Source: Zymomonas mobilis
GTDB lineage: Bacteria > Pseudomonadota > Alphaproteobacteria > Sphingomonadales > Sphingomonadaceae
Direction of reading: 5' to 3'
Assembly: GCF_006715975.1 (NCBI RefSeq)
Contig: NZ_VFOF01000001.1
Coordinates: forward strand, 940,001-1,004,000
DNA length: 64,000 nucleotides
Made by a program: the position numbers and the translations under genes. How positions within the stretch are numbered: the stretch's first letter is position 1; every line of letters starts with the position of its first letter. This document shows, one piece after another, positions 4,279 through 48,138 of the stretch. The notes under the pieces were generated by a model. That model was not told the DNA's origin. It made no database searches and worked only from the letters and a program-made list of their open reading frames with translations.

Positions 4279-6003
4279 GTGACCCTTTATCGCCACTTTG
4301 CCGCGCAGCTTTCTTCTATTCTTGATGCCTTTGAAGCCGAAGGCCAGCTACCGGCCGGTCTCGATCGCAGTCGGGTTGCTGTCGAACCGCCGCGCGACCC
4401 GTCTCACGGGGATCTCGCCATCAATGCCGCTATGGTATTGGCAAAAGTCGCCAAGACGGCTCCCCGTGCTTTGGCCGAAAAACTGGTTGAACCTTTATCC
4501 CAATTGGAAGGGGTTGATACGGTTGAAATCGCAGGCCCTGGTTTCATCAATATGCGGCTGACCGATGATTGCTGGCGGAAAGAGTTAACTCATATTTTGG
4601 AGCAGGGTCAGAATTATGGCCGCTCGGATATCGGTCAGAATTTGCGGGTGAATGTTGAATATGTTTCCGCCAACCCAACGGGCCCGATGCATATGGGCCA
4701 TTGCCGCGGTGCCGTGGTGGGTGATGCATTAGCCTCTTTGCTGGATTTTGCCGGTTACAAGGTAACCCGTGAATATTACGTCAATGACGCCGGACAGCAG
4801 GTTCAGACTTTGGCACGTTCTGCCCATCTTCGCTATCGGGAAGCTTTAGGTGAGCAGATTACGATCCCCGAAGGGCTGTATCCCGGTGACTATCTGGTGC
4901 CGGTTGGAAAATTGCTAGCTGAAAAATATGGCGACCGTTATGTCAATGCGCCGGAATCTGAATGGTTGACGCTATTCCGTGAAACGACGGTTGCAGCGAT
5001 GATGGATATGATCCGCGCCGATTTGGCTTTGCTGGGCATCCATCATGATAAATTCACCTCTGAAGCCGCGCTGCATAAGGCGGGTATTGTTCAAAAGGCT
5101 ATTGATAAGCTGGAAAAAGACGGCTTGATTTACAAAGGCGTTTTGGAAGCACCAAAAGGCGAAACCCCCGATGATTGGGAACCGGTTGAATTGACGCTGT
5201 TCCGTGCCACCAAATTTGGTGACGACAGCGATCGGCCTGTTCAAAAATCAGATGGTAGCTATACCTATTTTGGTGCCGATCTCGCTTATCATGCTGAAAA
5301 AGCAGCTGATGCCGATCAGTTGGTTGATATTTGGGGTGCCGACCATGCGGGCACGGTTAAACGGATCAAGGCCGCCGTTGCCGCATTGACCCAAAATAAA
5401 GTCCCTTTGGATGTCAAACTGGTGCAGATGGTGCATCTGTTGCGTGGTGGCGAACCCGTCAAAATGTCAAAGCGCTCCGGCAATTTCGTGACCTTAGCCG
5501 ATGTGGTGTCAGAAGTTGGTCGTGACGTTGTTCGTTTTTCCATGCTGACCCGCAAAGCCGATGCCCAGATGGATTTCGATTTTGAAAAAGTGATCGAAGC
5601 ATCCAAAGACAATCCAGTTTTCTACGTCCAATATGCTCATGCACGGGTGCATTCTCTGCATCGTCGGGTGTTGGCCGAGAAGATGACGCTGCCTGAAAAA
5701 GCTGATCTTACTTTATTAGATAAAGAAGAATTGGCTTTGATGCAGCAGGCTGCCCAGTTCCCGCGCTTGATTGAAGCGGCGGCTGTCGCGCATGAACCAC
5801 ATCGTATCGTTTTTTATCTGTTCACCTTGGCTGCGGATTTTCATAGCTTATGGAATAAAGGTAATGATAATCCTGATCGGCGTTTTCTGTTGCCGGATGA
5901 TCCGGCAAAAACAGCAGCCAGATTGGCGCTGGCTGATGCGATTGGGCAGGTTATCAGAAATGGGCTTGGCGTAGTCGGCGTCAATGCCGCGGAGGAGATG
6001 TAA
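4279..6003 (+). CDS. argS: Arginyl-tRNA synthetase
   Basis: A class I aminoacyl-tRNA synthetase of 574 residues that charges tRNA-Arg. It has the N-terminal Add1 domain (PRDPSHGDLAINAAMVLAK), the HIGH-type ATP site HMGH in NPTGPMHMGHCRGAVVGD, the KMSKRSGNFVTL signature loop near residue 395, and a C-terminal DALR anticodon-binding domain (FYVQYAHARVHSL to the end). Start is GTG at 4279, the first in-frame start that gives a normal Add1 domain; its ribosome site is weak. The next gene begins 4 bp after the stop, so the two are probably co-transcribed, an argS/SPOR pairing common in alphaproteobacteria. Confidence 0.96.
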   Translation: MTLYRHFAAQLSSILDAFEAEGQLPAGLDRSRVAVEPPRDPSHGDLAINAAMVLAKVAKTAPRALAEKLVEPLSQLEGVDTVEIAGPGFINMRLTDDCWRKELTHILEQGQNYGRSDIGQNLRVNVEYVSANPTGPMHMGHCRGAVVGDALASLLDFAGYKVTREYYVNDAGQQVQTLARSAHLRYREALGEQITIPEGLYPGDYLVPVGKLLAEKYGDRYVNAPESEWLTLFRETTVAAMMDMIRADLALLGIHHDKFTSEAALHKAGIVQKAIDKLEKDGLIYKGVLEAPKGETPDDWEPVELTLFRATKFGDDSDRPVQKSDGSYTYFGADLAYHAEKAADADQLVDIWGADHAGTVKRIKAAVAALTQNKVPLDVKLVQMVHLLRGGEPVKMSKRSGNFVTLADVVSEVGRDVVRFSMLTRKADAQMDFDFEKVIEASKDNPVFYVQYAHARVHSLHRRVLAEKMTLPEKADLTLLDKEELALMQQAAQFPRLIEAAAVAHEPHRIVFYLFTLAADFHSLWNKGNDNPDRRFLLPDDPAKTAARLALADAIGQVIRNGLGVVGVNAAEEM

Positions 6004-6007
6004 GGGA

Positions 6008-7117
6008 ATGGATGATAAAGATCAGGAGCATGATGCCATGAATTCCCATGGCCGGCCTCAAGATAATAATACCTATAACCGACCATTTGGCCGGTCCAAT
6101 GCTCATGGTTCATCACATGATGATACCAATGATTTTTATGATCATCACTCGGATGAAGAAGAGGGCGAAGATGATGACAGCTTGCCATGGCTTGAACCTG
6201 TAGAAGATGACGAAGGTGGTCATGGTGGTAATCTGTTCCAGATCATCATCGTTGCCTTGGTCGCCTTGTTGACTTTAACTCTATTCGGTGTTGGTCTTTA
6301 TTGGTGGTTCCATCGTCCTCCGACGGTCAGCGGCAATGCGTCTTTGATTACGGCTGAACCTGGGCCCTATAAGACCAAGCCGCGCGAACCGGGTGGGATG
6401 AAGATCGAAGGTGAAGGTGAATCTGCTTATGCCGCCAGCGAAGGGCGGGATATCAATTCGTCTATTGATACATCGGCACAACCGGAACAGCCGATGACCA
6501 TTACCCCGAAGCAAACCGAGCAACCGATCACGACGCCTGCGCCTGTTGCAAAAGCACGGCCGGATACAGCCGATAACGAAGTTGAAATGTCAGATATGAC
6601 AGGGGATACCCGTCATTCGGCAACAGCGCGTCCGGCTCCGGTAAAACATGAGAAGGAAGCCGCTGCTAAAGCGGTCGATCGTCCGGCAAAGGTTGTCGAA
6701 CATGAAAAACCGGCGGTTGCTCCCGCAAAGCCGGTTGTCGCCAAAGCTGAAAAGAATGAAATCATTCATTCGGCAGAAGTCGCTAAACCCAAAGCTAAGG
6801 AAGAAACTTCTTTAGCGGGTGTGATGAACAACCTGCATAACGATACCCATCCAGCCGATGAAGCCAAGAAAGCGCCAGCCTCTGGTGCGGGTGTTATCCA
6901 GTTGGGTGCGTTTGGTAGTGAAGCCAAAGCCAATGAAGTTTGGGCGCATCTGACGCAGCATTATGGCTGGTTGAAACCTTTGCCGCATCAGGTTGTATCG
7001 GTAAAGATTGGTGAAAAAACCTTCTATCGTTTACGGGCGACCGCAGGCGGTCAAGCCAATAGCTTCTGCAGCCAATTGCAGACAGCGGGTGAGACCTGTG
7101 CTCATATCGGAAAATAA
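6008..7117 (+). CDS. SPOR domain membrane protein
   Basis: About 369 residues if it starts at ATG 6008, which has AAGGGA and GGAGGAG just upstream; an in-frame ATG at 5984 lies inside argS and is less likely. Order of parts: an acidic, Asp/His-rich cytoplasmic segment, one transmembrane helix (IIIVALVALLTLTLFGVGL), a long Pro/Ala/Lys periplasmic linker, and a C-terminal SPOR domain (VIQLGAFGSEAKANEVWAHL to the end). This is the layout of FtsN-like septal peptidoglycan binders. The gene follows argS by 4 bp and ends at a strong terminator. The division role is inferred from the domain, not proven. Confidence 0.85.
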   Translation: MDDKDQEHDAMNSHGRPQDNNTYNRPFGRSNAHGSSHDDTNDFYDHHSDEEEGEDDDSLPWLEPVEDDEGGHGGNLFQIIIVALVALLTLTLFGVGLYWWFHRPPTVSGNASLITAEPGPYKTKPREPGGMKIEGEGESAYAASEGRDINSSIDTSAQPEQPMTITPKQTEQPITTPAPVAKARPDTADNEVEMSDMTGDTRHSATARPAPVKHEKEAAAKAVDRPAKVVEHEKPAVAPAKPVVAKAEKNEIIHSAEVAKPKAKEETSLAGVMNNLHNDTHPADEAKKAPASGAGVIQLGAFGSEAKANEVWAHLTQHYGWLKPLPHQVVSVKIGEKTFYRLRATAGGQANSFCSQLQTAGETCAHIGK

Positions 7118-7127
7118 TATCTGAATA

Positions 7128-7167
7128 GGGGTATGCGCATCTATTTCGCGCATACCCTTTATTTTTC
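7128..7167 (+). terminator. Rho-independent terminator after the SPOR gene
   Basis: A perfect 10-bp stem, GGGTATGCGC (7129-7138) against GCGCATACCC (7148-7157), has a 9-nt loop and is followed by TTTATTTTTC. It lies 11 bp after the SPOR gene stop. Confidence 0.85.
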
Positions 7168-7252
7168 GACTGTTTATACTGTTTTTATGCCCATCGGGTG
7201 CTATGGCTGCTGGCAATAAAATCTTCCGGTCAGCAGTGTTGGGGGCCTCATT

Positions 7253-9922
7253 ATGATAACAACGAATGAAATCCGCCGTTCTTTTCTCGAGTATTTTGAA
7301 AAAAATGGCCATCGGATAGTACCATCAGCACCCTTGGTGCCTCAAAATGATCCGACGTTGATGTTTGTTAATGCGGGGATGGTGCCTTTCAAAAATACGT
7401 TTACCGGTCTTGAAAGCCGTCCTTATAAAACCGCAACCTCTTCACAAAAATGTGTGCGTGCCGGTGGTAAGCATAACGACCTTGATAATGTCGGTTATAC
7501 TGCCCGCCATCATACGTTTTTTGAAATGCTGGGTAACTTTTCTTTCGGTGATTATTTCAAAGAACGGGTTATCACGCTCGCATGGGGATTGCTTACCAAA
7601 GAATGGGGATTAGATCCCGAACGTCTTTGTGTGACGGTTTACCATACCGATGATGAAGCCTTTCAGTTATGGCAGAAAATCGCAGGCCTTCCCGAAGAAA
7701 AAATTATCCGGATCGCGACTTCTGATAATTTCTGGTCAATGGGCGATACGGGGCCTTGTGGTCCTTGCTCTGAAATCTTTTATGATCATGGCCCTGAAAT
7801 TCCAGGTGGCCCTCCAGGATCGCCTGACGAAGATGGTGATCGCTTCGTCGAAATCTGGAATTTGGTGTTCATGCAATATGAACAAGTCGATGCCGAAACC
7901 CGTTTAGATTTGCCGCGTCCCTCAATTGATACTGGTATGGGGTTGGAACGTATCGCTTCTGTTTTGCAGGGTGTGCATGACAACTATGATACGGATACCT
8001 TCAAAGCATTGATTGCAGCATCGGGTGAATTGACCCACACCCCAACCGATGGCCAGTTTAAAGCTTCACATCGGGTTATTGCTGATCATTTACGGGCTGC
8101 TGGATTCTTGGTTGCGGATGGCGTTTTGCCTGCCAATGAAGGTCGTGGTTACGTTCTGCGTCGCATTATGCGCCGCGCTATGCGTCATGTCCATCTTATC
8201 GGGGCAAAAGAGCCTTTGATGTATCGGCTGGTTCCAGCATTACTTTCTGAAATGGGCGTTGCTTTCCCTGAATTGGTCAGAGCGAAAGCCCTGATCGAAG
8301 AGACCTTGCGTTTGGAAGAAACACGCTTCCGTCAGACGTTGGCAAATGGTCTGAAAATTCTGGAAGAAGAAACCCAGCATCTGAAAAGCGGTGATACCTT
8401 GCCGGGTGAGGTCGCTTTCAGACTCTATGACACCTATGGCTTCCCTTATGATTTGACGGCTGATGCTTTGCGGGCGCGAAATCTTATGGTCGATCAGGCT
8501 GGTTTTGATGCGGCGATGGCTGAACAGCGGAAAGCTGCGCGGGCAGCTTGGAAGGGTTCTGGCGAAAAAGCATCAGATGAAATTTGGTTCGATATTGCCG
8601 ATCAGCAGGGCGGCACTGAATTCACGGGCTATACCGCTGAAAAAGGTAGCGGTCAGATTGTTGCTTTGGTCAAAGACGGTAAGCGGGTTGAAAGCGCTGC
8701 TCAAGGTGATGAAGTAACCATTATCACCAACCAAACGCCTTTCTATGGCGAAAGTGGTGGTCAAAAAGGCGATGTTGGCACCATTACGGGCAGCCATGGT
8801 TTGAAAATTAATGTGACCGATACGCAAAAGCCTTTAGGCCGGATTCATGCCCATATCGGTAAAATCGAAAATGGTCAGATCAAGGTGGGCGATGATGTCG
8901 ATCTGTTGGTTGATATCAATCATCGCAATCGGTTACGTGCCAATCACTCGGCAACCCATTTGCTGCATGCGGCATTGCGCGACCAGTTAGGCCAGCATGT
9001 TTCCCAAAAAGGCAGCATGGTTTCGGCTGAACGTTTGCGCTTTGACTTTTCCCATCAGAAGGCTTTGAGCGATCAGGAATTGGCGGCGATTGAAGCTGAA
9101 GTTAACCAACAGATTTTGGGTAACTCGGCGGTCACAACGCGCTTGATGACGCCGGAATCTGCAGTTGAAGCAGGGGCTATGGCCTTGTTCGGTGAAAAAT
9201 ACGGCAACGAAGTCCGCGTTTTGTCGATGGGTATTCGTCATGACGATGAAGAAGAAGGCGCATGGTCGGTTGAGCTTTGCGGTGGAACGCATGTTCCGTC
9301 CTTAGGTCAGATCGGTTTATTCCACATCATCAGCGAAACGGCTGTTTCTTCCGGTATTCGTCGTATTGAAGCCGTAACGGGTGAAGAAGCCAGATTATGG
9401 TTGGTTGGTCGCGATCGTTTGCTGCGTGAAACAGCTTCTGTCTTGAAAGCCGTTCCAGAAGAAGTCCCGACACGGACAGCCGCGCTTCTTGAAGAGCGTC
9501 GGAAGTCAGAACGTGTTCTGGCGGATGCTCAGAAAGCTTTGGCCTTGGCAAATGCCAATGGCGGGCAGGGCGGCAATAGCGCAGAGCCTGAAAAAGTGGG
9601 TGCTTACCAGTTCATCGGTCAGGTTATCGAAGGGCTTGATCCTAAAGCTTTACGGGGTCTGATTGACGATAATAAAAAGATTGTCGAATCTGGGGCGATT
9701 GCCTTTATTACGGTCAACGAAGGCCGCGCTTCTGTTGCGGTTGGCGTTAGTGACGATCTGAAAGATAAATTAAGCGCTGTCGACCTCGTCCGTAAGGCGG
9801 TTGAAACCTTGGGTGGCAAAGGCGGCGGTGGCCGTCCTGATATGGCTCAAGGTGGCGGCCCGAATGGGGCTGATGCAGCGAAAGCATTGGATGCGGTAAA
9901 GCAGCTTTTGCAGAACGCCTAA
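7253..9922 (+). CDS. alaS: Alanyl-tRNA synthetase
   Basis: A class II synthetase of 889 residues that charges tRNA-Ala and clears mischarged Ser/Gly. The catalytic core begins with [10 protein letters not shown] and the motif 1/2 region [13 protein letters not shown], and [10 protein letters not shown] lies in the tRNA-recognition part. The editing domain carries the zinc-type motif HSATHLLH near residue 563 and CGGTH near 672. The C-terminal oligomerisation/DHHA1 region ends with [13 protein letters not shown], as usual. Length is normal. It stands alone between two terminators. Confidence 0.97.
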
Positions 9923-43092: not shown

Positions 43093-43131
43093 AGGCCGGA
43101 ACTTTTTTAAAGATCCGGCTTATTTTTTTTA
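43093..43131. terminator. Terminator after hpnM
   Basis: GCCGGA (43095-43100) and TCCGGC (43114-43119), with extra AAGTT-like pairing inside, form a hairpin followed by a run of eight T. The stop codon of the minus-strand 118-residue gene lies in its loop, so the convergent genes share this site. Confidence 0.75.
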
Positions 43132-43463
43132 GTATCCGCACTTAATCGGGCAGCCAAGACTTCAAGTGGAATATGCTTGACGGCTTCTAGGCGATCATCA
43201 GCCTGTAAAATATCGGCGATAATCGCAAGTCTTTGCGTGATATGGTCGAAATTCTGTAAAACTGAGACGTGGTTTTCGACGACATAGCTATCGCCGCATA
43301 ATACCACGGAAAGATTTTCGACATCATGCCGAACCAAAGCAACTTCCGCCGCCAGTTTTTTGAATAAAAGGGTCGTTGCCCGATTATTTCGGCACATGTC
43401 TCCGGAACAGGGACGAGCCTGTTCCGGATTGAGAAAATTTTTGTCCAATTTTACTTCTGACAT
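43107..43463 (-). CDS. Small helical protein next to cheB-like gene
   Basis: A 118-residue protein with no family I can name. It is predicted mostly helical, with two cysteines in a CSGDMC pair near the N-terminus. LQNFDHITQRLAIIADIL resembles the LQ-x2-D-x3-Q-R-L stretch seen in CheZ-like and other chemotaxis-associated helical proteins, but this is weak. Its ATG overlaps the end of the cheB-like gene by 13 bp, so the two are translationally coupled and probably functionally linked. Confidence 0.7.
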   Translation of the reverse strand: MSEVKLDKNFLNPEQARPCSGDMCRNNRATTLLFKKLAAEVALVRHDVENLSVVLCGDSYVVENHVSVLQNFDHITQRLAIIADILQADDRLEAVKHIPLEVLAARLSADTKKNKPDL

Positions 43464-44476
43464 TTAGCAAGAACCAAAGAGGCGATATCGCCGATAGCGA
43501 CCTCCTGATCGATTACTTTTGCATCACGAGCAGCGCGCGGAGCATCGCCCGCAATGGCGGTTTCTTGATCCTGTGCAAAGGTGAAGGCACCGCTTGCTTT
43601 CAATGGCTTCATACCTGCGACACCGTCATCACCAACGCCGGTCAAGATCCCTGCGACCACATCATCTTTGGCCGTTTTAGATAAAGCCGCAAATAACAGG
43701 CTTGCGCTGGGACGATGACCCTGAACAGGTTCTTTCGGCAACAGGCGGATCGTTGGATCTGGCCAGCGGTCAATAACCACATGGTTTTTCGTGTCGCTGG
43801 CGATATAGATTATGCCTTGCTTTAATTTGGCACCATCTTTGGCCAGTTTTACCTGAGGTTTGATCGCAGAGCCCAAACGAGTCAGATAAATTTCGGTGAA
43901 GCTTTCGTCCAAAGGCTGGACAATAATAGTCGGGGGACAGTTAGCCGGAAATTCTGGCAAAATATCAAGCATAGCATCAACACCGCCCGTTGAGGTGGTG
44001 AGCGCGATCATTTTACCGTTCCATTCCAGCGCTTCTTTTGCAACTTTACGCTGTCTGGTTTTTTTCCGGATTTTACCGCCAGCGGCTGCAACAATCAGCT
44101 CGGCAAGTTTCGGCCCCAGCTTTTTAAAAACTTCCAGAGTGACGTTCTGTGGTTTTGGGAAACATTCAAAAGCGCCCAATTCCAAGGCGCGCAGTGAAAT
44201 TTCTGCACCACGTTGGGTCAGCGTGGAAAGCATGATGACCGGCATTGGCCGTTCTTTCATGATTTCCTCTAGAAATTCGATACCGCTCATTCCAGGCATT
44301 TCGACATCAAGCGTAATGACCTGGGGTGATAATTCCGTAATACGTTCCCGTGCTTCATCCGCATTCGCCGCGACGCCGACAACCTGAATATTATCAAAGC
44401 TGTCCAACACCTCGGAAAACAGGGTGCGCATGGTGAGAGAATCATCAACAATTAAAACGCGAACAGGATCGCTCAT
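43451..44476 (-). CDS. cheB-like: CheB-like response regulator with altered catalytic site
   Basis: A 341-residue protein with the two CheB domains: a receiver (Asp11/Asp12, phospho-acceptor Asp57 in TLDVEMPG, Lys108 in FPKPQ) and a C-terminal methylesterase fold. Ser162 (TTSTGG) and Asp284 (LTGVGDDG) of the Ser-His-Asp triad are present. The catalytic His of the QHMP motif is Pro188 (IVQPLDESFT). The codon read from the DNA is CCT, one base from His (CAT is CCT with C to A). The receiver looks intact. It probably cannot demethylate receptors in the standard way. A good ribosome site (AAAGGGA) precedes ATG 44476. Confidence 0.88.
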   Translation of the reverse strand: MSDPVRVLIVDDSLTMRTLFSEVLDSFDNIQVVGVAANADEARERITELSPQVITLDVEMPGMSGIEFLEEIMKERPMPVIMLSTLTQRGAEISLRALELGAFECFPKPQNVTLEVFKKLGPKLAELIVAAAGGKIRKKTRQRKVAKEALEWNGKMIALTTSTGGVDAMLDILPEFPANCPPTIIVQPLDESFTEIYLTRLGSAIKPQVKLAKDGAKLKQGIIYIASDTKNHVVIDRWPDPTIRLLPKEPVQGHRPSASLLFAALSKTAKDDVVAGILTGVGDDGVAGMKPLKASGAFTFAQDQETAIAGDAPRAARDAKVIDQEVAIGDIASLVLAKCQK

Positions 44477-44832
44477 TCCGTATCCCTTTTACTGATTTTA
44501 AAACGCTCGTTACATGAAAAAATCTGGTTCAATTTGAAGCAGTTATTCAAAATCGATATTTTAAAATCCTAGTTTAATGCCTATCGTTTGATAGTGAGTT
44601 TAATATCATAAAGTCTAAAATATGCTTAACAAAATCGGTTTTTGCCCTTTAGTTTCAAAACTATGCCGCTATGTTTTTTGTGAAAAAAGCGAGTAATTTT
44701 TATAAAAAATCATATGGTTTTTTAAAATTTAAAATAGCCACATGAATAAAAAACCGATTTCTCCAAAACGGACTTTTAAAGTAAAATATTTTTTATAATA
44801 ATAAAAATATATTCTTTTAAAATAATGTAAAA
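44477..44832. other. AT-rich gap with long-range inverted repeat
   Basis: A 356-bp gap between two minus-strand genes of the chemosensory group. AAATCGGTTTTT (44632-44643) and AAAAACCGATTT (44749-44760) form a perfect 12-bp inverted repeat 105 bp apart. The rest is AT-rich without ORFs. The size suggests a separate promoter for the cheB-like gene. Confidence 0.45.
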
Positions 44833-46500
44833 TTAACTGTATTTTTGAGGATTAAGAAGAGAATCTACATCAACGACTAAAGCGGTTTTCCCTTCTTGTA
44901 AAAAAGCGACTCCACTAATACCATGCACCGGCTGGAAATTTTTTTCGAGACTTTGTACCAAAACTTGCCGCTGACTATCCAAAGCATCGACAATAATCAT
45001 GACTTCGGGCTGATGAATCGCCTGATCAATCCGGATCAGGATTTTTCGACCTTCCTTAAAAGAGTCTTGGGTGAAAGTTTCTTCGCCCAACAAAGCGGAT
45101 AACGCAATCGCAGGAAACCATTGATCCCGTAATTGGATCATGGATTGTCGTTCATCGACCCAATGGATGTCTTCCGCATGGACGGCGATGCTTTCGACAA
45201 TATCGGAAATCGGCAGAATATAGCGTTGTTCTTTGACTTTGACGATTAAACCTTCAACCATGGTTTGGTTGAGCGGTAAAAGCAGAGTGACACGCGTACC
45301 TGAATGAGGTGCGGCATAGATGCGAATTTCGCCTTTTAATGACTGAATAATGTGTTTTACGGTAGAAAAACCACTTTTTTCTTTATGCTGATAGTCACTG
45401 TCGAAATTCTGCGCTTCTGTTTCGGCAGAAGCATCCTTATCTGCAATTATCCCGTATTTTTCGGCAATTTTAATGAGTTTTTCCCACAAAATACCACGCC
45501 CGTCATCAGAAATGACGATTTTTAAACGGCTGGCATGATAGCGAGCTTCCAATCGGATGTGGCCTTCACGGGCTTTGCCGATTTCCTGTCGCTCTTTTGC
45601 GTCTTCAATACCGTGAAAGGCGGCGTTATCGACGAGTTCCAGCAGGGCTTTTCCAAGCTGGATAACAATGCGTTTATCTATTTTTGTTTCTGAACCGATC
45701 ATCGAAAAGGCAATGAATTTACCGCTGTCGGTAAAACGTTGTTCAATAATTGAAATGATCTGCGAAAAAAGTGGCTCAACTGTTTGGGTTTGAAGCGCCA
45801 TCGCATAATTATTAGCGGCTTGAATCAGTTGATCCAGCTTTTCAAGCGCGTTGACCCGACCAGCATTTTCAGAAGAAAGCGAGCTAAGACTTAATTCTGA
45901 GCGGACACTCAACATTTCGTGGAATATGTCGAAAAGATTATCCAGCTTTTCGGGATTAACCGGAATATGGGGAGCGAGACTACCTTCGACATGAAGGCTA
46001 TCATCTGTAAAATTGGGTTGCAGCCGTGTTAAAGGATCATCGGCTATTAAAGCTGAATTTGCATGGGATGTTATTTTTTGGTTATCGGTGGTCGGTTCAT
46101 CACCAATTGTCTTAATCGCATATTGAGAGGAATGAGCAGTTGCGTTCTTTAATTCCTCTTCAAGTTGGATATGGTCTAGCGGTGTCTGTCCAGAGGCAAC
46201 GGCTAGAATATAACGCTCAATCGTATCAAAACTACGTTGGACTAGGTCGATTAAAAACAGATTTAAGGCGAGGCGATCATTACGGATGGCTTCGATCAGT
46301 TGTGCCAGTAAAAAAGTAAGCTGCACCAAAGGCTTTTCGCCATCACCTGCCGCTTGGTTATTGAGTTCCTTTATCGCCATTTCCAGACGCAACAGACATT
46401 TGCTGTCATAAACGCCAGCCTGACAGGCTCTTAGGTCATTCTCGATAGTTTTTTTTTGGCCTTGCCATAAAGTAAACAGTTTTTTTTCGGGCTGCGTCAT
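44833..46500 (-). CDS. cheA-like: CheA-like protein lacking key kinase residues
   Basis: A 555-residue protein with CheA layout: a helical P1/HPt-like part (1-100), a linker, P3 dimerisation (~175-250), P4 ATP-binding (~260-410) and P5 CheW-like (~412-550). The phospho-accepting His of the AHSIKG motif is Met41 (RLEMAIKE). P4 keeps the N box (LVDNAAFHGIE, Asn292) and the G1 box SDDGRGI. The F/ATP-lid/G2 stretch that normally reads GFST...SGRGVGMDVVK is collapsed to SGFSTVK, losing the glycine-rich loop. It probably cannot autophosphorylate, although ATP binding may remain. P5 should still couple to a receptor. Confidence 0.85.
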   Translation of the reverse strand: MTQPEKKLFTLWQGQKKTIENDLRACQAGVYDSKCLLRLEMAIKELNNQAAGDGEKPLVQLTFLLAQLIEAIRNDRLALNLFLIDLVQRSFDTIERYILAVASGQTPLDHIQLEEELKNATAHSSQYAIKTIGDEPTTDNQKITSHANSALIADDPLTRLQPNFTDDSLHVEGSLAPHIPVNPEKLDNLFDIFHEMLSVRSELSLSSLSSENAGRVNALEKLDQLIQAANNYAMALQTQTVEPLFSQIISIIEQRFTDSGKFIAFSMIGSETKIDKRIVIQLGKALLELVDNAAFHGIEDAKERQEIGKAREGHIRLEARYHASRLKIVISDDGRGILWEKLIKIAEKYGIIADKDASAETEAQNFDSDYQHKEKSGFSTVKHIIQSLKGEIRIYAAPHSGTRVTLLLPLNQTMVEGLIVKVKEQRYILPISDIVESIAVHAEDIHWVDERQSMIQLRDQWFPAIALSALLGEETFTQDSFKEGRKILIRIDQAIHQPEVMIIVDALDSQRQVLVQSLEKNFQPVHGISGVAFLQEGKTALVVDVDSLLNPQKYS

Positions 46501-46647
46501 AAAATAGTATATTCCCCGAAAGAACGTCTGATGGTTCCTGTTACTCTGGAACCCTATAGAATCGATATCCAGAAAATAGCTAGAGTTAGTGCATCTATAT
46601 TATTGAATTATACATCAAAATCGGAAGGCACGCTGGTAAATTTTATC

Positions 46648-46665
46648 CATCCAGTCAAGGATGGA
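46648..46665 (-). terminator. Hairpin downstream of chemoreceptor gene
   Basis: A perfect TCCATCC / GGATGGA stem with a 6-nt loop lies ~70 bp past the receptor stop on the minus strand. No T tract follows, so a terminator role is uncertain. Confidence 0.35.
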
Positions 46666-46734
46666 ATAGTAATGCCGGATTATATTTGACGTTTTTTATT
46701 TATGTTTTGATCTCGTTATAAAATCCGGCAAGAT

Positions 46735-48138
46735 TTAATTTGTCTTTGCATCGGCCCCTAGATGGAAGCGTTCCAAAGCGGTTCCCAGCAAATCAATGGC
46801 ATCGACAATATTGCGAGAGGCTTCGGTTGATTGTTCGACAATAACACCGCCTTGCTGGGTGATTTTTTCAGTATCTTTGACCATAGCCGCGGCATTATGC
46901 AGATCTTGCGATTGGGATACCGCCGATAGTGAAATATCATGCGCTTGTTGATTAACGGTTTCGATACTCTGAATAATTTCTTCGAATGTTTTTCCAGTAT
47001 TTTCGACATGGTTTTTAGTGGTGCTAAGCTGTTTTAGGCTCCCTTCAATAAGGGTTTTTATGCCTGCAGCCGCTTCAGCAGAACGTTGTGCCAATGCCCG
47101 CACTTCATTTGCCACAACGGTAAAGCCTCGTCCGGCTTCGCTGGCTTTCGCGGCTTCGATGCTAGCATTCAAAGCTAAAAGATTGGTTTGAAAGGCGATA
47201 TCATCAATCAAGATGACGATATTGGAAATCTTCTTTGAAGAGGCGGATAAAATTTCCATGCTTTCGATAGCTTCAGAAGCAATACGACCGCCTTCACCGG
47301 CCTTCACCCGTGTTTGTTCAATCGATTTGCTCACATCCCTTGCGCGGGATGCGGTTTTTTCTGCGGCATCTGCGATCTGACTCATCGTCGAAGTCGCATC
47401 CCCCAGCGCTTGAATCTGATGCTGGCTGGAATCTGTCAGAGATCGCGTAAAACGCCCAATATTATGTGCTTCCGAACGCGCATTATTGGCGATTGTAACG
47501 ACTTTGGCGATGGTGCCGGCTAGACTGGAGCGCATATTAGCAAAGTCATTGGCAATGGCGGCGTAATTTTTCGGGATATGTTCAAGAACAACATCGAAAT
47601 TTTGTTCAGCCATCTGATTAAGCGCTTTACTGAGGCTTGTCAGAATGGTGTTCCGTTCTTGGCGTTCATAGTCGAGGTAATTCGACAGAACGATTTCAAT
47701 ATCAAGTAATGTTAATTTGACTAAAGAGCCTATTGTTTTGGCTAGTTTTTGATGCAGCAAAAAGCCACCCGGTGCGCCCTTTATCGCCCGCGTAATCAGT
47801 TGTTCCAAATTGATCGCATAAGCACTGATATAATAGGTGGGGGTAACCCCTATCTGTGCATGGATCGCGCCAATTTTTTTAGAATTTTCTGCGCTTTGTT
47901 GATTTAAGGGTAAAGAAAACCAAGCCGTCCAATGGGCGAGCTGTTTCTTTTTAGCCTTATCAATTCCAGCTTTGCTTTTAAAAAAAGAGTGTGCTGATGT
48001 TCGGTTCAGATGGTCATAAAGATAATCGAGGGTTTTTAGCCCATAACGCCCAATTATTTTTTTAAGCGCAGGAAAATTTTTGTAGTCATTTTCAGTGACG
48101 TTGAATAATTTTAAACGTTCCTTGAAATCTTCAGCCAC
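46735..48138 (-). CDS. Globin-coupled methyl-accepting chemoreceptor (HemAT-like)
   Basis: A 467-residue soluble receptor with no membrane helix. Residues ~1-165 form a sensor-globin domain; His93 in AIHAQIGVTPTYYISAY aligns with the proximal haem ligand of HemAT. The C-terminal part is a cytoplasmic MCP signalling hairpin, with the tip IAFQTNLLALNASIEAAK and EVRALAQRSAEAA. There is no CheR-tethering pentapeptide at the C-terminus. It presumably senses O2 (or NO/CO) through haem. Start is GTG 48138 with AAGGAT upstream. It is transcribed in the same direction as the CheA- and CheB-like genes. Confidence 0.9.
   Translation of the reverse strand: MAEDFKERLKLFNVTENDYKNFPALKKIIGRYGLKTLDYLYDHLNRTSAHSFFKSKAGIDKAKKKQLAHWTAWFSLPLNQQSAENSKKIGAIHAQIGVTPTYYISAYAINLEQLITRAIKGAPGGFLLHQKLAKTIGSLVKLTLLDIEIVLSNYLDYERQERNTILTSLSKALNQMAEQNFDVVLEHIPKNYAAIANDFANMRSSLAGTIAKVVTIANNARSEAHNIGRFTRSLTDSSQHQIQALGDATSTMSQIADAAEKTASRARDVSKSIEQTRVKAGEGGRIASEAIESMEILSASSKKISNIVILIDDIAFQTNLLALNASIEAAKASEAGRGFTVVANEVRALAQRSAEAAAGIKTLIEGSLKQLSTTKNHVENTGKTFEEIIQSIETVNQQAHDISLSAVSQSQDLHNAAAMVKDTEKITQQGGVIVEQSTEASRNIVDAIDLLGTALERFHLGADAKTN

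Follow-up and report, generated by a model that had tools for sequence, protein, structure and literature searches.

What can a chemotaxis locus do when its CheA-like and CheB-like proteins both lack standard catalytic residues? The question is raised by four genes, all on the minus strand, in a 64,000-nucleotide stretch of the Zymomonas mobilis genome (the window; assembly GCF_006715975.1, contig NZ_VFOF01000001.1, C1:940001-1004000), a genome of 2.1 Mb over 7 contigs. These are hemAT (46735..48138; 467 residues, GTG start), coding for a globin-coupled cytoplasmic receptor with Protoglobin and methyl-accepting chemotaxis protein (MCP) signalling domains; cheA2 (44833..46500; 555 residues), CheA-like, with a P1 relic lacking the phospho-His, a P4 domain with a damaged ATP lid and an intact P5; cheB2 (43451..44476; 341 residues), of CheB type, with an intact receiver and no catalytic His; and a small gene (43107..43463; 118 residues) for a putative CheT/CheZ-like protein with a DxxxQ motif. 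A first-pass annotation had recognized HemAT-like, CheA-like, CheB-like and small proteins at 43107-48138 on one strand, the last coupled to cheB; the open reading frames (ORFs) and Pfam domains confirm the genes, and a 13-nt overlap between cheB2 and the small gene the coupling. The answer we prefer, at a probability of roughly 0.45, is that the locus would be an accessory signal-termination module, a phosphate-sink pseudo-CheB with a CheT-like phosphatase, serving the genome's single canonical chemotaxis pathway (CheA1, CheB1, CheY1).

CheB2 has the complete CheB architecture, Response_reg plus CheB_methylest (Pfam, 2.9e-21 and 1.6e-39), and scores 312 bits against NCBIfam PRK00742, for which the cut-off is 293. 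It retains Ser162, Asp284 and the phospho-acceptor Asp57 of the receiver (codon 44306..44308, minus strand), and is without the Ser-His-Asp triad, Pro188 (codon 43913..43915, minus strand) replacing the catalytic His. This substitution, singled out in the first-pass annotation, is a stable one across strains, being Pro in all four genomes of the genus. A CheB2 profile was searched against 119 genomes of the family, and the residues were read for all 45 matches of at least 248 bits and, below that score, for some of the matches (L112-L118, L190). Among the 45 were 18 CheB2, three of them from Zymomonas, and 27 other CheB. With G003 and further fetched loci, and with exact duplicates left out (e.g. 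the L120 copies, identical to L082), the full set comprises 27 distinct CheB2 and 42 other CheB. All 27 CheB2 come from the same family and are set apart from the rest by a branch with an SH-aLRT (Shimodaira-Hasegawa-like approximate likelihood ratio test) value of 100 in a quick tree, for which the program warned of long branches meeting, one of these being L132 with the whole CheB2 group. Not one of the 27 carries Ser and His together; His is absent from 25 (Q, P, R, A, D, E or G instead) and Ser is kept in 18, while both Asp, that of the receiver and that of the triad, are present throughout. In the other CheB read (42/42) the triad is intact and everything is kept. L121 and L123 are the only CheB2 with a His at the catalytic position, and both have Asp replacing the catalytic Ser. 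By these alignments cheB2 is an old clade across related bacteria, not a local degenerate gene. The earlier interpretation, residue loss under selection, is sound in that respect; it did not see that in CheB2 the loss is the rule of a whole clade rather than an oddity of Zymomonas.

The two halves of the protein were compared across 15 loci or genomes (105 pairs; ZymG001, ZymG003 and L129 left out as near-duplicates). Mean identity in CheB2 is 0.641 for the receiver versus 0.430 for the esterase half, the corresponding values for CheB1 being 0.596 and 0.565, and the gap between the halves is larger in CheB2 than in CheB1 in 101 of the 105 pairs, which are not independent of one another. Sixty-four positions are kept in at least 26 of the 27 CheB2, 43 of these within residues 1-125; near-invariant effector positions across the clade number 20. 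To judge from these values, constraint on CheB2 is shifted to the receiver across species. The structural model (predicted local distance difference test, pLDDT, 83) matches CheB in its separate domains (1chd, TMt 0.87; 3t8y, TMt 0.86). Over the full length the template modelling (TM) score against CheB is about 0.6 with a root mean square deviation (rmsd) of 9, so that the predicted packing of the domains differs or is unsure.

The four genes occur in identical order in 4/4 genus genomes searched, hemAT of G003 running into the end of a contig. Rates of nonsynonymous (dN) and synonymous (dS) substitution were estimated by the method of Nei and Gojobori (NG86), with G003 left out of all pairs (close to G001; hemAT cut by the contig end). 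Between the window and G001 dN/dS is about 0.08 for cheA2 (dN 0.132, dS 1.72) and 0.025 for cheB2, which agrees with the earlier proposal that genes which have lost standard residues are nevertheless under selection for a non-canonical role. Between the window and G002 dN amounts to 0.034 in cheB2, 0.089 in cheY1, 0.092 in cheB1, 0.160 in cheA1, 0.179 in hemAT, 0.215 in the small gene and 0.349 in cheA2; cheR, cheD and cheW were outside this comparison. Of the che genes in the comparison, the tightest constraint is on cheB2, despite the missing catalytic His, and cheA2 evolves fastest, still under purifying selection. The CheB2 proteins of the window and G002 are 94.4% identical (receiver 121/125, esterase half 174/189), and this likeness is not due to recent transfer because only 53 of 156 fourfold sites are identical. 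With fourfold sites near saturation within the genus, the open frames are more than chance. The possibility that cheB2 is a pseudogene was rejected, its dN being the lowest and its frame open at near-saturated silent sites.

The small protein matched no Pfam family over the cut-off. Its D73-x-x-x-Q77 motif (43233..43247, minus strand) has D and Q invariant in three alignments, and the longer pattern Q-x-x-D-x-x-x-Q is invariant in 17/17, 10/10 and 16/16 rows of the overlapping alignments A1, A4 and A6 (L064, a frame-extended ORF, was dropped from the hidden Markov model of the family). AlphaFold predicts a two-helix hairpin (pLDDT 69). A search of 195 family genomes outside the genus found relatives in 26, and cheB2 directly precedes the small gene in 24 of 27 cases. 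The exceptions are L124 and L130, in which CheB2 is on the opposite strand, apart and in the same locus, and G017 (L105), with no small gene in the stretch fetched around CheB2. Because the small protein served to fetch many of the loci, the fairer count is that for non-genus CheB2 from the profile search, where the small gene comes directly after in 12/15.

Two operon plans predominate, T standing for the small gene. Twelve loci (L072, L073, L075, L076, L078, L080, L082, L085, L121, L123, L127 and L129) have the order A-R-B-D-Y-W-B2-T, each with a single cheY inside the operon; past T, L075 has one more receiver-like ORF, and L127 and L129 are nearly identical. The other plan, Y-A-W-R-B-Y-D-T, has two cheY and no B2 within the fetched stretch, and is seen in eight loci (in L125, L128 and L132 one gene of the plan sits within a long ORF). 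In these the small homologue comes directly after cheD (L071, L122, L125, L126, L128, L137, L138 and, inside a longer ORF, L132); the window copy follows cheB2. The order A-R-B-D-Y-W-T without an adjacent B2 is found in L079, L124, L130 and L134. In L081, L083, L084, L086, L087, L088 and L131 the fetched stretch contains a cheY-cheB2-small group but no cheA-R-B-D-W operon, L084 having a distant cheA-like ORF about 6 kb off. The two-cheY plan is presumably also that of Agrobacterium fabrum, with the other che genes lying between those for CheS, CheY1, CheY2 and CheT. The locus numbers given for these four A. fabrum proteins in the accessible part of the paper on CheT (PMC12654446) fit this order. 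By this place and the DxxxQ motif the small protein is a predicted CheT/CheZ-like phosphatase, its relatives occupying the CheT-like position.

In class-wide searches with the small family A1 matched 3/289 genomes and A6 10/385 at E 0.01; seven of the A6 matches were rejected as chance, namely one unrelated-looking ORF and six proteins of about 500 residues which, read by eye, we take to be RpoN-like. The small homologue of G455 was present in 2/10 genomes of its own order, and gave no match by tblastn in plasmids. A search for rhizobial CheT through cheD found cheD in 29/240 class genomes; of the 30 cheD loci read, 17 have what looks by eye like a CheB as the next ORF, and a clear small homologue is carried only by L152 (G335) and L154 (G455), L179 having a weak match.

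CheA2 contains HATPase_c and CheW domains in Pfam, with H-kinase_dim only at E 0.086 and no Hpt match, and its P1 relic is recognizable by hhalign (92.5%, E 4.9e-7). The first-pass annotation was right that the P1 phospho-His is gone and wrong in placing the position at Met41; two alignments put it at Lys44 (codon 46369..46371, minus strand). The site reads K, K, K and T in the genus orthologues, with His in none of the four. By comparison, it is His in 28 of 29 other CheA rows, the exception being the distant 27% match L084_A_16456 (cheA ORFs of 600 residues or less, hence the split cheA of L124, were left out). The N box and G1 are retained in 4/4 genus CheA2 and the F/G2 stretch (ATP lid) is cut by an 8-column deletion in 4/4 (in the window approximately 45352..45429, minus strand, from residue numbers in the alignment). 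The missing G2 box is thus a feature of all four genomes, though a GKGG glycine run near the lid persists in two of them (G001, G003), and because two of four retain it the window CheA2 is a more degenerate form. P5, the CheW-like domain (44851..45255, minus strand; residues 416-550, Pfam CheW 2.1e-16), is as intact as had been claimed, like the CheB2 receiver, and residues 179-548 (P3-P5) align with the solved CheA 3ja6/1b3q. CheA2 accordingly has the coupling domain of a CheA and neither the P1 phospho-His nor the full N/G1/F/G2 set of the kinase; it is probably kinase-dead. Alignments of the window proteins were inspected for a P1-aligned His, a complete G2 loop and a catalytic His of CheB, and none was seen. 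No cheA2 orthologue was found in 294 other family genomes, where the best listed matches are at most 34% identical, the level of canonical CheA. A tree was not used for the origin of CheA2, its branch being very long (3.59) and its placement unsure.

The hemAT product (Pfam Protoglobin 1.2e-23, MCPsignal 1.7e-37) matches the HemAT sensor 1or4 and is 73-85% identical within the genus. Its His93 (codon 47860..47862, minus strand) aligns with the SIHLRIG His in 1or4, the proximal haem ligand; domains and aligned His together make it a predicted haem/O2 receptor. No site in HemAT fits the simple methylation pattern used, which is a weak test. Other family genomes have full-length hemAT homologues too, immediately before cheA in L072 and, in G017 and G172, beside the small gene. 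In L077 (G004:C5:195000-212000), positions 4300-8327 group a HemAT-like mcp, a 228-residue CheB-type ORF (esterase part), cheD, cheY, cheW and a small DxxxQ gene, and no cheA was found within the fetched stretch.

A complete canonical operon, mcp-cheA-cheR-cheB-cheD-cheY-cheW, is located on the same contig at about 180 kb, about 800 kb from the window. Family searches of the whole genome gave three MCPs, three proteins with a CheW domain (CheA2 among them) and one CheR, at C1:182567-183139. With a single CheR, three MCPs and only one full canonical operon from these searches, the hemAT-cheA2-cheB2-small locus is not a self-standing pathway. The earlier remark that cheY, cheW and cheR are missing from the window also holds: its only CheW domain is that of CheA2, and comparison of its ORFs with the genome's cheY at E 1e-3 gave no cheY-like match except the CheB2 receiver. 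Between cheA2 and cheB2 is a gap of 356 bp (44477-44832) with a G+C content of 0.24, in which no che-gene remnant was found. A short dyad, CTATC-AAAC-GATAG, lies upstream of cheB2 (44581-44594, minus strand); it is kept in G001 and G003 with one spacer base changed, and not in G002. A promoter scan was uninformative (12 found versus 10.9 expected), and alignments of the regions upstream of cheB2 and hemAT showed nothing decisive.

As the accessible text of PMC12654446 describes it, rhizobial CheT has a DXXXQ motif and a CheZ-like predicted structure and dephosphorylates one of two CheYs, and the corresponding part of PMC8429497 reports a CheY acting as a phosphate sink in rhizobia. The clade-wide loss in CheB2, paired with a DxxxQ gene, moves the likely role of the locus from the titration of receptors or CheW, which had been suggested earlier, to the handling of phosphoryl groups. 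CheB2 would then be a pseudo-methylesterase whose receiver takes phosphoryl groups from CheA1, which is the likely donor because CheA2 has no P1 His, and as a phosphate sink it would compete with CheY and CheB1. The small protein may drain CheB2~P and/or CheY~P as a phosphatase. In Zymomonas this pair is joined to HemAT and the probably kinase-dead CheA2, the P5 domain of which may dock into receptor-CheW arrays. Such docking would allow damping to sit at, or be gated by, HemAT complexes, and O2 might gate it through HemAT. Doubtful as yet is a broader proposal, that sphingomonads recruited an inactivated CheB as phosphate sink with a coupled CheT-like phosphatase, replacing a second CheY of the rhizobial type, and that Zymomonas has placed the pair under a globin receptor and kinase-dead CheA, as a ligand-gated termination device.

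A number of observations weigh against the termination module. The esterase half is highly conserved within the genus, beyond the need of a pure sink, and the catalytic Ser survives in the 18 CheB2 counted above. CheB2 is away from the small gene in 3/27, and G073 has a B2 operon plus, elsewhere, a CheB of the two-cheY branch; the association of one cheY with CheB2 may follow operon lineages, reflecting history rather than function. Some ATP binding by CheA2 is possible since its N box and G1 are kept, and the 356-bp spacing between cheA2 and cheB2 speaks against assuming one transcript. The kinship of the small protein with CheT and CheZ is one of place and motif: a PDB profile search with the small family had a best E of 0.19 and did not find CheZ, and two fold searches (Foldseek and a second) gave generic helical hairpins, nothing significant, with CheZ not among the 50 matches listed from each.

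The conservation of the esterase half within the genus makes the strongest alternative one in which CheB2 works by binding, as a pseudoenzyme whose dead esterase domain shields receptor methylation regions from CheB1 and CheR while its receiver switches access. The fit of the modelled domains to their CheB counterparts, the 174/189 identities and the 20 near-invariant effector positions would suit such a protein; across species, by contrast, its effector half diverges faster than that of CheB1, and the failure of HemAT to show a site of the simple methylation pattern, weak test as it is, points the same way. We regard shielding as unlikely. Less likely again is that CheA2 acts as a kinase-dead array component, a scaffold or titrator of CheW or receptors, with the CheB2 pair a mere genomic neighbour. 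The absent P1 His, the cut lid, the intact P5 and the alignable P3-P5 region are all consistent with it, as is a dN that exceeds those of the other che genes in the comparison while purifying selection persists; but in all 4 genus genomes searched the four genes remain neighbours in an unchanged order, and this favours a joint role.

In a split kinase, P4 of CheA2 would bind ATP and phosphorylate P1 of CheA1 in trans, much as CheA3 and CheA4 of Rhodobacter sphaeroides engage in trans-phosphorylation. According to the accessible part of PMC10782961, CheA3 and a partner act jointly as one CheA; this, the N box and G1 (4/4) and the GKGG run of G001 and G003 would accord with a split kinase. We nevertheless consider this improbable, as the F box and G2 region are cut in every genus orthologue and CheA1, which appears complete, has no need of a partner. 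We give as little credence to the locus being a drifting relic of a second full operon, hemAT-cheA-R-B1-D-Y-W-B2-small, the middle genes of which were lost. The frames are open at near-saturated silent sites, dN/dS is well below 1 and lowest in cheB2, and the 356-bp gap holds no remnant of lost genes. As history the idea is plausible, and it is only as a claim of no function that it fails: hemAT comes immediately before cheA in L072 and cheB2-small close such operons, so that the Zymomonas locus corresponds to the opposite ends of hemAT-cheA-R-B1-D-Y-W-B2-T, while the primary Zymomonas operon is without the B2-small end. Duplication of an operon with reciprocal loss would explain both.

If the termination module is real, chemotaxis has a conserved pseudoenzyme within its adaptation arm and a further way to end a signal, besides a spare CheY or CheZ. 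It predicts, testably across a whole bacterial group, that genes which, like cheB2, score over the cut-off of the CheB family model need not be methylesterases. A lineage-wide CheB without its esterase residues and with a CheT-like partner is a wider subject than the first-pass annotation had in view. A literature search covering titles and the beginnings of abstracts of the top-ranked matches, with most subscription journals outside its coverage, showed no report of such a CheB clade, and the top-ranked matches on Zymomonas chemotaxis included no study of the hemAT-cheA2-cheB2 locus.

Each component can be set beside a known system. CheB2 resembles the CheB methylesterases (6ymz, 1a2o) in full-length architecture, receiver Asp, Ser162, Asp284 and the predicted fold of each domain, and differs in having Pro188 instead of the catalytic His and in belonging to a separate clade, no member of which has both Ser and His. 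The receptor is, like HemAT of Bacillus subtilis (1or4), a globin-coupled cytoplasmic MCP with His93 aligned; it differs in its linkage to cheA2-cheB2-small. The B. subtilis protein is reported to bind ethanol (PMC7542364). CheZ is about twice the size of the small protein. The two have in common a DxxxQ motif (as given in the accessible part of PMC7750401) in a helical protein, and the profile and fold searches gave neither a profile match nor a significant fold match between them. CheA3 of R. sphaeroides and other partly non-functional CheA have an Hpt domain without His or a non-functional kinase domain (accessible part of PMC10782961), whereas in CheA2 a single P1 without His and a cut ATP lid coexist in one protein. 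CheT of Sinorhizobium meliloti and A. fabrum, to which the small protein is likened from the description available in PMC12654446, is also a small, predicted helical che protein with DxxxQ, and relatives of the small gene follow cheD; in the B2 operons and in Zymomonas the gene follows cheB2 instead. Finally, the CheY1 phosphate sink of rhizobia, so far as the accessible part of PMC8429497 describes it, would share with CheB2 a receiver that competes for the phosphoryl groups of CheA, but in CheB2 that receiver is joined to a domain of esterase type in which the catalytic His is lacking.

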